DNA from: Paenibacillus sp. yr247 | GTDB lineage: Bacteria > Bacillota > Bacilli > Paenibacillales > NBRC-103111 | Length of the DNA: 64,000 nucleotides | NCBI RefSeq assembly: GCF_900103825.1 | Contig: NZ_FNIF01000005.1 | Coordinates: 124,001-188,000, forward strand | Direction: 5' to 3' | Shown here: positions 7,470 through 59,547 of the stretch, in pieces | Numbering within the stretch: the stretch's first letter is position 1 | How the letters are laid out: every line of letters begins with the position of its first letter | Translations under genes and position numbers: made by a program | Notes under the pieces: generated by a model | The model's database searches: none | What the model saw: only the letters and a program-made list of their open reading frames with translations | What the model was told of the DNA's origin: nothing

Positions 7470-7516
7470 TATCCCTCCCTGAGAGTTTTGCTTTAGCAAA
7501 ACTAGCTTCGTAAGCA
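7470..7516 (-). repeat. Shine-Dalgarno-adjacent palindromic element, copy A (glgB)
   Basis: In the glgB sense direction this reads TGCTTACGAAGCTAG, then the palindrome AGTTTTGCTAAAGCAAAACT (7484-7503), then CTCAGGGAGGG and the ATG. The main stem is 9 bp with a 2-nt loop; GCTTACGAAGC can form a small second stem. Close copies lie before the GerMN lipoprotein gene and leuD, and a variant lies before asnS. Confidence 0.8.
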
Positions 7517-7692
7517 GTAGGTAAATCAATCTGTTTTCGTCTAAAACATGGATTTTACAAATAATCACTTACTCTACAAATACTACAACCAGGTAGTGAA
7601 ATCCTTCAATTCCAATTTATTAAAAAAAGGAAAATACTTAACCCTCGGTGAATTATTGGAGTGACATTTTATTGAAAGGTGGAAACAAAATT

Positions 7693-31085: not shown

Positions 31086-31126
31086 CTCCTTTAGAGTTTT
31101 GCATAGCAAAACTAACTTCGAAAGCA
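31086..31126 (-). repeat. Shine-Dalgarno-adjacent palindromic element, copy B (GerMN gene)
   Basis: The sense strand reads ATGCTTTCGAAGTT, then AGTTTTGCTATGCAAAACT (31095-31113; 8-bp stem, 3-nt loop), then CTAAAGGAGTG and the start. It is the same architecture as the glgB and leuD copies, and lies between amidase and GerMN lipoprotein genes of one operon. Confidence 0.8.
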
Positions 31127-31147
31127 TACGCTTAATGCCTTCGTCTC

Positions 31148-32890: not shown

Positions 32891-33496
32891 TTATTTATAA
32901 GCCAAACGCTTTTGGTGAGCTTGCTCATAAGCAGTGATTTTTTCTTCGTGCTGAAGTGTTAAGCCGATGTCATCCATGCCTTGCAGCAGGAATTGACGAC
33001 GATGCTCATCCAATTCAAAATTAATACTAAGCCCGTAATCATCAGTCAACTTGTTGTTTTCCAGATCGACATTTAACTTGTAGCCTTCGTACATCGCTGT
33101 ACGAGCGAACAAATCGTCAACTTGCTCTTCCGAAAGCTTGATTGGCAGAATGCTGTTTTTGAAGCAGTTGTTATAGAAGATGTCGGCATAAGACGGCGCG
33201 ATAATGACGCGGAAACCGAAATCTTGAATGGCCCATGGTGCATGCTCACGAGAAGATCCGCAACCGAAGTTTGCTCTGGAGAGCAGGACCGATGCTCCTT
33301 GATAGCGGTCTTGGTTTAATGGGAAGTTCTCGATCACATTGCCCGCCTCATCCCATCTCCATTCGAAGAAGAGGAATTGACCGAACCCGGAACGCTCAAT
33401 TCTTTTGAGAAATTGCTTAGGAATAATGGCATCTGTATCTACATTTACGCGATCCACAGGACCTACTAGGCCTGTATGTTGTTTAAAAGCTTCCAT
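32891..33496 (-). CDS. leuD: 3-isopropylmalate dehydratase small subunit
   Basis: The swivelling domain of isopropylmalate isomerase in leucine synthesis; works with LeuC. The start is placed at the ATG at 33496 (MEAFKQHTGLVGPVDRVNVD) with AAGGAG ten bases upstream; the longer frame would run through the palindromic element. Product 201 residues, the normal length. Motifs NVDTDAIIPKQF and GCGSSREHAPWA, which binds substrate, are intact. It follows leuC by 69 bases containing palindromic element C. Confidence 0.94.
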   Translation of the reverse strand: MEAFKQHTGLVGPVDRVNVDTDAIIPKQFLKRIERSGFGQFLFFEWRWDEAGNVIENFPLNQDRYQGASVLLSRANFGCGSSREHAPWAIQDFGFRVIIAPSYADIFYNNCFKNSILPIKLSEEQVDDLFARTAMYEGYKLNVDLENNKLTDDYGLSINFELDEHRRQFLLQGMDDIGLTLQHEEKITAYEQAHQKRLAYK

Positions 33497-33504
33497 GTTT
33501 TCAT

Positions 33505-33546
33505 TCTCCTTAAAGTTTTGCTTTAGCAAAACTAGCATCGTAAGCA
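33505..33546 (-). repeat. Shine-Dalgarno-adjacent palindromic element, copy C (leuD)
   Basis: The sense strand reads ATGCTTACGATGCT, then AGTTTTGCTAAAGCAAAACT (33514-33533), then TTAAGGAG and the leuD start. The 20-base palindrome is identical to the glgB copy. This copy lies between two genes of one operon, so it acts, if at all, on an internal ribosome site or as an internal processing or pausing site. Confidence 0.82.
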
Positions 33547-33565
33547 TTGCCTTAATCAGCCCAAA

Positions 33566-52177: not shown

Positions 52178-52210
52178 CCTCCCTAGAGTTTTCGTTGAAA
52201 ACTAACTTAA
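52178..52210 (-). repeat. Shine-Dalgarno-adjacent palindromic element, copy D (asnS), variant
   Basis: The sense strand reads TTAAGTT, then AGTTTTCAACGAAAACT (52187-52203; 7-bp stem, 3-nt loop), then CTAGGGAGGG and the asnS start. Relative to copies A-C the pair at stem position 7 is C-G instead of G-C, so pairing is kept. The small GCTTACGAAGC stem is missing. Confidence 0.7.
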
Positions 52211-59484: not shown

Positions 59485-59547
59485 GGACATTCATGTCCTT
59501 TGCATACGAAGAAAGTTTTCCTTATGGAAGACTCTTAGGAGGAACTC

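Follow-up and report, generated by a model that had tools for sequence, protein, structure and literature searches.

A dispersed palindromic repeat tied to Shine-Dalgarno sequences in Paenibacillus, probably retained as an mRNA 5'-end element

The window, by which we mean the whole stretch of 64,000 nucleotides of Paenibacillus sp. yr247 that was analysed, carries a short palindromic repeat at the ribosome sites of several genes. Four palindromes just 5' of ribosome sites had been pointed out from the letters alone (the sequence-only reading). All four are present, on the minus strand and 2-4 nt before the Shine-Dalgarno sequence (SD), and profile search upheld the gene identities proposed with them, namely glgB, a GerMN (Germane-domain) lipoprotein, leuD and asnS. 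The unit upstream of glgB (7484..7517, -) consists of CTGCTTACGAAGCT and an 8-bp hairpin with a 4-nt loop, followed by the SD CAGGGAGGG (56.5 bits, E 2e-11). That of the lipoprotein gene (31095..31127, -) has the 5' motif and an 8-bp hairpin with a 3-nt loop, followed by the SD CTAAAGGAG (45.2 bits, E 8.5e-9). The unit in the leuC-leuD spacer (33514..33547, -; 58.4 bits, E 7.3e-12) is joined directly on its 3' side by the SD stretch of leuD, TTAAGGAGAAT (33503..33513, -), and TTAAGG also stands 5' of the unit. The asnS copy (52187..52208, -) is a relic, in which the 7-bp hairpin AGTTTTC-AAC-GAAAACT is retained before the SD CTAGGGAGG and the 5' motif is gone (11.4 bits, E 0.58). A fifth, imperfect copy had been overlooked; it lies on the plus strand (59500..59533) before the SD CTTAGGAGG of a gene for a PHO4-family phosphate transporter (24.6 bits, E 5e-4).

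The window contains 3 copies of the exact palindrome AGTTTTGCN{0,10}GCAAAACT, where 100 shuffles average 0.00, and 4 copies of a looser form that takes in the asnS palindrome, where shuffles average 0.09. Our script accepted 34 window genes, each with an SD and an ORF of 100 aa or more. Exactly four of them, namely glgB, the lipoprotein gene, leuD and asnS, have at the SD a perfect hairpin that is 6 bp or longer; shifted positions give an average of 1.2. A separate observation concerns the leuD reading frame: the program that lists ORFs starts it at 33547, on the ATG of the unit's own ATGCTTACG, in frame with the true start at 33496 (33494-33547, -). A unit whose ATG is in frame with leuD is a possible cause of misannotated start codons.

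Read in the sense of the mRNA, the unit is ATGCTTACGAWGnn followed by a hairpin of 7-8 bp and then CTWAGGAGG. It is noncoding, about 34-43 nt long, and stands singly or in tandem runs of up to five. In 102 distinct units the 5' motif is most constant at C4 (98%), G9 (94%), A10 (98%) and G12 (97%); positions 9-10 thus form a near-invariant GA, and the hairpin begins 5 nt further on. The stems come in several types, including AGTTTTGC/GCAAAACT, AGTTTTC/GAAAACT, AGTTTTTC/GAAAAACT and AGCTTTGC/GCAAAGCT. The spacers inside tandem runs are mostly CAGnn(n), CTAAGnnn or CTAAGGnn(n), and resemble the 5' part of an SD plus 2-4 bases. At leuD, tpiA and addB both sides of the unit carry AAG or AAGG, and at carB AAG; these letters may be a target duplication or part of the unit. 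The sequence-only reading had taken GCTTACGAAGC for a mini-stem (GCTT-ACG-AAGC), and here we disagree: the sequence is conserved, but position 11, the closing base, is free, with A in 60% of units and, in 34%, a T that disrupts the stem. An upstream reading frame within the unit (ATG CTT ACG ...) was rejected because unit length changes by single bases. We found no T run 3' of the units that would mark an intrinsic terminator, and the unit has no inverted repeat at its two ends, which read ATGCTTACG... and ...GCAAAACT.

From 20 ungapped units we built a covariance model 34 positions long. The SD was left out of it, so that the link to the SD remained an independent test. The search gave at least 152 matches, with the best 150 of 5080 first-look candidates scored, and we kept 132 matches with E up to 1.63 after setting aside a few weak matches and the shadows that palindromes give on the opposite strand. 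The 6.25 Mb genome accordingly holds at least 132 usable units at 84 or more places, counts that are lower bounds because only those 150 candidates were scored. The exact palindrome alone occurs 29 times in this genome, and its backwards control 0 times. Copies are therefore abundant beyond the window, where their absence had been named as one of the observations that would count against a family; the genome search, the search of relatives and the covariance model that had been proposed as checks place the family genome-wide and in all 30 genomes of the genus that were searched. The 84 arrays comprise 53 single units, 18 doubles, 10 triples, 2 runs of four and 1 of five.

The position of these arrays is nearly fixed. 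An SD lies within 18 nt downstream of 81 of the 84 arrays, compared to 2.4% of random window positions, and in 80 of them it starts 1-3 nt past the hairpin (0.5% of random window positions), which agrees with the constant distance noticed in the window. Orientation, claimed to be constant, is nearly so: 78 of the 84 arrays are followed on the same strand by an SD, a start codon and an open frame. Of the six arrays that lack an accepted frame, three have an SD and a frame outside the script's rules (one of these genes resembles rpmJ by eye and is very short). The other three lack an SD within 18 nt; they are C56:37238 (a truncated match with an SD just beyond), C38:82216 (a weak match, E 1.38) and C70:17285. 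The last of these (C70:17285-17316, locus L122), with no SD behind it, is the only array that clearly runs against its neighbouring ORFs. Palindrome shadows aside, the list of at least 152 matches contains no opposite-strand unit beside an array. By the script's rule a co-directional ORF lies upstream of 62 of the 84 arrays, and in 28 of the 84 the first unit begins at most 25 nt from the stop of that ORF or overlaps it. The downstream genes are mixed housekeeping genes (purQ, carB, pyrR, rsmH, divIVA, ruvB, nusB, ndk, gpsA and others) with no apparent regulon; the names were mostly given by eye from N-termini, and by profile search for the window genes.

The two arms of the hairpin covary. 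Standard pairs fill 98.0% of the stem cells, compared to 92.9% when the letters of the 3' arm are redealt among units, and cells changed on both sides number 29 compared to 5.9; in both measures, as in the covariation score, 0 of 500 shuffles reached the observed value. Two weaker measures gave less separation, with 3 pairs changed on both sides against 1.6 (reached by 18 of 500 shuffles) and 9 further pair types against 8.1 (164 of 500). When the partner is slid by one column, pairing falls to 52-65%. These figures come from an alignment that was fitted to the model and from units that are mutually related. They bear on the reading of the perfect palindrome as a transcription-factor operator or an intrinsic terminator, which we find hardly credible: the pairs covary with G.U included, the units lie between an upstream stop codon and an SD (at most 25 nt from a co-directional ORF, or overlapping it, in the 28 arrays given above), and no T run follows.

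Beyond this genome, matches at E up to 1e-3 were found in 37 of 60 genomes (our own included), with 1-107 matches each; these include 30 of 30 genomes of the genus and fall in 7 of the 24 genera of the set. Among 299 genomes drawn from the phylum, four match, namely our own and three others from its order. When named genomes were scanned, at least 119 stretches emerged, and the 80 listed are nearly all from Paenibacillus, the rest coming from a Paenibacillaceae bacterium, from Gordonibacillus kamchatkensis and from MAGs. Among the matches listed, 96 units were selected by pattern: 56 have an SD at their end, 33 lie within arrays (32 of these lead on to an SD and one reaches the end of its locus), and the remaining 7 are neither and sit inside longer repeats.

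Several forms depart from the simple unit. The core unit was seen within longer repeats away from SDs (about 150-200 nt by eye) that contain an extra large hairpin, at L152, L157, L177 and L198 in Gordonibacillus and at L170 in Paenibacillus sp. H1-7. One genome with 32 copies (G034) has all five of its inspected copies (L083, L266, L272, L279, L284) in such longer repeats with an extra large hairpin, again not at SDs. In L173 and L218 of the MAG RYN_352, two of the seven units away from SDs, the surrounding stretch is MITE-like, and its ends look by eye like terminal inverted repeats, GAGTGTGTTYAA. Relatives with a longer hairpin (about 55-63 nt), which share the outer stem and the 5' motif with the unit, stand before SDs and partly in tandem at L262, L268, L274 and L281 (G045), L273, L280 and L286 (G058), L270 (G052), L282 (G031) and our own C20:115421-115480; this form belongs to genomes of another family of the order, with single copies in our own genome and G031. 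Units were also seen in rRNA operons in the sense orientation, 5-6 nt before the mature 5S rRNA at L057, L264 (G037) and L283 (G035), and about 30 nt after the 23S rRNA at L285 (G037). The copies adjacent to 5S rRNA, from three loci in two other genera, fit an RNA-level role or an insertion preference for such sites.

By its anatomy (a short 5' motif, a hairpin, about 100 copies and tandem runs) the unit recalls the REPs described in PMC2817692, and could be pictured as an element of the REP kind that depends for its movement on a Y1 tyrosine transposase (RAYT or IS200/IS605 type). Matches to the Y1 profile PF01797 occur in 15 of the 60 genomes, ours among them with three, one of which is without stops. 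However, none was found in G001, G002, G015, G016 and G021, which hold 78-107 units each, and a RAYT or Y1 enzyme is thereby rejected as a present requirement. In addition, REPs in BIMEs alternate in orientation, which the Paenibacillus units do not. We consider a REP-like element of this kind very improbable.

Orthologous sites in relatives were surveyed for 34 of our target genes in three genomes and for up to 33 more in two closer ones. Clean pairs of empty and filled sites were obtained at leuD, tpiA, carB and addB, the other sites being filled, relics or blurred by drift. In the leuC-leuD spacer of 30 genomes of the genus, 14 have a unit with the GC-type stem, 2 have another stem type and 14 have no recognisable unit. 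Nine of the empty spacers read GATTAAGGAGAATG, whereas several filled ones read GATTAAGG-CA-unit-TTAAGGAGAATG. On the tree this requires at least four changes of state at leuD, where gains and losses are not fully separable as the root is not fixed. At tpiA the empty site reads TTTTCAAAGGAGAGC and the filled one TTTTCAAAGG-unit-TTTAAGGAGAGC. The empty carB site reads CATCTGTGAAGGAGG, and its filled form alters the last codons of carA. We noted there that the unit in our genome (C34:514261-514294) gives carA its stop codon and a new C-terminus, and that in G012 and G024, without the carA-carB unit, the carA frame by eye runs into carB. At addB, a gene named by eye, G028 has the empty form (ACAAAGGAGCCTG), and G002 and our genome have the same unit. 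Since this unit is shared and the tree groups G028 with G002, precise loss in G028 would be the likelier course. In relatives, the arrays at C34:588464 and C48:125746 have one unit more, which differs in stem type and lies next to the SD, 3' of the shared unit. Serial insertion would explain this arrangement, the alternative being a loss in our genome. At sigE the order and type of the units differ even between close species.

Since precisely empty orthologous sites exist, units come and go. The alternative that the sequence-only reading had set beside a function, a palindrome that is mobile and inserts just 5' of the ribosome site, is thus substantiated insofar as units are gained and lost (by the empty sites, the two stem types at one SD and the patchy occurrence), but a constraint in the mRNA is indicated as well. 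Taken together, it is highly probable that we are dealing with a dispersed, insertion-capable repeat linked to the SD.

Such spread may not call for a dedicated enzyme. Template switching or gene conversion between SDs is conceivable, since SDs offer a shared short match and AAG(G) flanks the filled sites, and deletion between the repeats would amount to precise loss. This route would account for the restriction to SDs, the fixed orientation, the tandem growth, the likely precise loss at addB in G028 and the changes of unit order and type at sigE between close species. It leaves the copies before 5S rRNA or within other repeats unexplained, however, and the flanking matches are short (3-8 nt). 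We regard enzyme-free spread as a serious alternative, if less likely than not, and one compatible with the interpretation that we favour below. A further idea is that the unit is the binding site of a putative trans-acting RNA-binding regulator which controls the translation of a regulon. A strongly conserved unpaired motif and a hairpin placed exactly at the SD would suit such a site, but the downstream genes look like unrelated housekeeping genes, occupancy differs between species, and there are copies before 5S rRNA; a regulator site is, in our judgement, improbable.

We then ask whether the hairpin is kept once it is in place. Among the 14 species with a GC-type unit at leuD, a single one of the 16 arm columns is variable (A to G, leaving a U.G pair), compared to 3 of 4 loop columns, 6 of 14 columns of the 5' motif and 20 of 20 columns of the left flank; the last six columns of the motif, GATGCT, do not vary. 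The arms differ from motif plus loop with Fisher p 0.008. This comparison is to be read with the selection of its rows in mind, as the pattern used to choose the 14 accepts only near-intact arms, and indels in some of them inflate the flank count. By eye, none of the other 16 leuD genomes has a GC-type unit with broken arms (G014 and G021 are hard to read). At sigE the terminal hairpin keeps at least 7 of its 8 pairs in 28 of 30 species, with G-C, C-G and T-A all seen at pair 7, and 7.93 of 8 pairs are formed compared to 7.41 when the arms are swapped among species. Here the 5' arm was taken as the best-pairing 8-mer, so that pairing is favoured by the choice. At orthologous loci in general, a perfect hairpin is present at 10 of 30 in G010, 6 of 29 in G012 and 11 of 30 in G024, against controls of 2.0, 0.8 and 0.8. 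This is a minority of loci; most sites therefore do not need one. The hairpin seems to be favoured where it is present and dispensable at most sites, and it is likely under selection in the mRNA.

A rival reading is that of a purely selfish repeat. It holds that insertion prefers AAGGAGG or harmless places and that the hairpin serves mobility only, with no gain to the host. The gain and loss of units, the relics that the eye finds commonly, and the copies away from SDs in rRNA spacers and in longer repeats are all what it would lead one to expect. Predicted folding of the 66 of 84 arrays that have at most two units and enough flank is also in keeping with a benign passenger, as the unit pairs with itself and SD accessibility is 0.452 in the native sequence, 0.466 with the unit removed (p 0.70) and 0.414 with shuffled sequence (p 0.006). 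A passenger, on the other hand, is expected to decay evenly after insertion, and the conservation of the arms speaks against this: they persist across 14 species at leuD, where the loop, the 5' motif and the flank have drifted, and the terminal hairpin of sigE is kept in 28 of 30. A selfish repeat without any use to the host is accordingly possible but, on these grounds, rather unlikely. The folding result bears equally on a direct effect on the ribosome site. Sequestration or exposure of the SD was considered and rejected, since removal of the unit leaves the predicted accessibility unchanged, and a translation switch is therefore not favoured.

On balance we favour a dispersed, SD-linked insertion repeat that is probably retained as an mRNA 5'-end element, its hairpin most likely serving in processing and stabilisation. 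Units would be inserted and lost precisely, just 5' of the SD core, and the SD would be kept or rebuilt on the hairpin side, so that the gene retains its start signal. With the SD retained, a further unit could be accepted, and tandem arrays would result. Each unit would leave in the mRNA a hairpin that folds on itself and stands about 2 nt ahead of the SD; an RNase Y-like endonuclease may cut within the stretch that contains the near-invariant GA (ACGAWG), whereupon the hairpin would shield the new 5' end and uncouple the level of the downstream cistron from that of the operon. In Bacillus subtilis, sites of RNase Y are described with a GA dinucleotide, in AU-rich and weakly structured RNA, often with structure downstream (PMC11780869). 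With a near-invariant GA, then a hairpin and then an SD, the units have the anatomy of processed operon sites; according to the same source the GA is a weak and degenerate feature, since cggR and glnR can dispense with a G ahead of the cut and the sites show no clear motif for RNase Y. The hairpins of cggR and glnR are reported there to act chiefly by stabilising the cut product, and in the cip-cel operon of Ruminiclostridium the ratios of the transcripts are set by stem-loops between the genes (PMC10311766). That processing or stabilisation is the reason for the retention of the hairpin, as at cggR-gapA, is a proposal we put forward tentatively. The sequence-only reading had argued for a function in the mRNA. 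A constraint at that level is indeed indicated by the fixed orientation, the spacing to the SD, the covariation and the conservation of the arms, whereas the particular function is one that we infer. A bolder version, in which a mobile element integrates at the SD itself, rebuilds it, installs a hairpin for processing or 5' protection and, being swapped in and out, retunes cistron stoichiometry at dozens of housekeeping genes, is possible but somewhat doubtful. The repeat may nonetheless be a portable piece that shapes the ends of mRNAs in operons, and the empty and filled sites of close relatives amount to a natural experiment on the effect of an SD-adjacent hairpin on mRNA processing, stability and cistron ratios.

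As to known systems, the sequence-only reading knew of no named family of this form, and our searches point the same way. No Rfam family matches in the window at its gathering score; seven unit loci searched at E up to 1 gave just a sub-threshold match to mir-16. A literature search that covered neither preprints nor most subscription papers returned no description of a hairpin repeat at the SDs of Paenibacillus. MITEs and the Rickettsia palindromic elements are likewise small, non-autonomous repeats with palindromes. The Paenibacillus unit differs from them in lacking terminal inverted repeats, in its size of about 34-43 nt and, in our genome, in its restriction to SDs. REPs are GC-rich, and carry conserved bases 5' of the hairpin, as does the Paenibacillus unit. 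The likeness to REPs and BIMEs, as these are portrayed in PMC2817692, extends to short extragenic palindromes in about 100 copies per genome and in regularly spaced runs. In contrast, the Paenibacillus unit is low in GC, has a fixed orientation and position at SDs, and occurs in the five copy-rich genomes that are without a Y1 match. The TAACTGA repeats of marine Beggiatoaceae likewise form forward arrays directly upstream of the start codons of unrelated genes, and a post-transcriptional role is proposed by their authors (PMC4679880). They are 7 nt long and overlap the place of the SD, with an SD in only about 10% of the regions (same source), whereas the Paenibacillus hairpin precedes an intact SD. 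At cggR-gapA and glnRA (PMC11780869) and in cip-cel (PMC10311766), a hairpin between cistrons marks a processing site and determines how abundant the processed mRNA is; the parallel in Paenibacillus is the position of the hairpin, cleavage being putative. Those are features of single operons, whereas the Paenibacillus repeat is one dispersed family at dozens of genes. A dispersed palindromic repeat is in itself a known kind of element; the SD-restricted placement is its unusual property.
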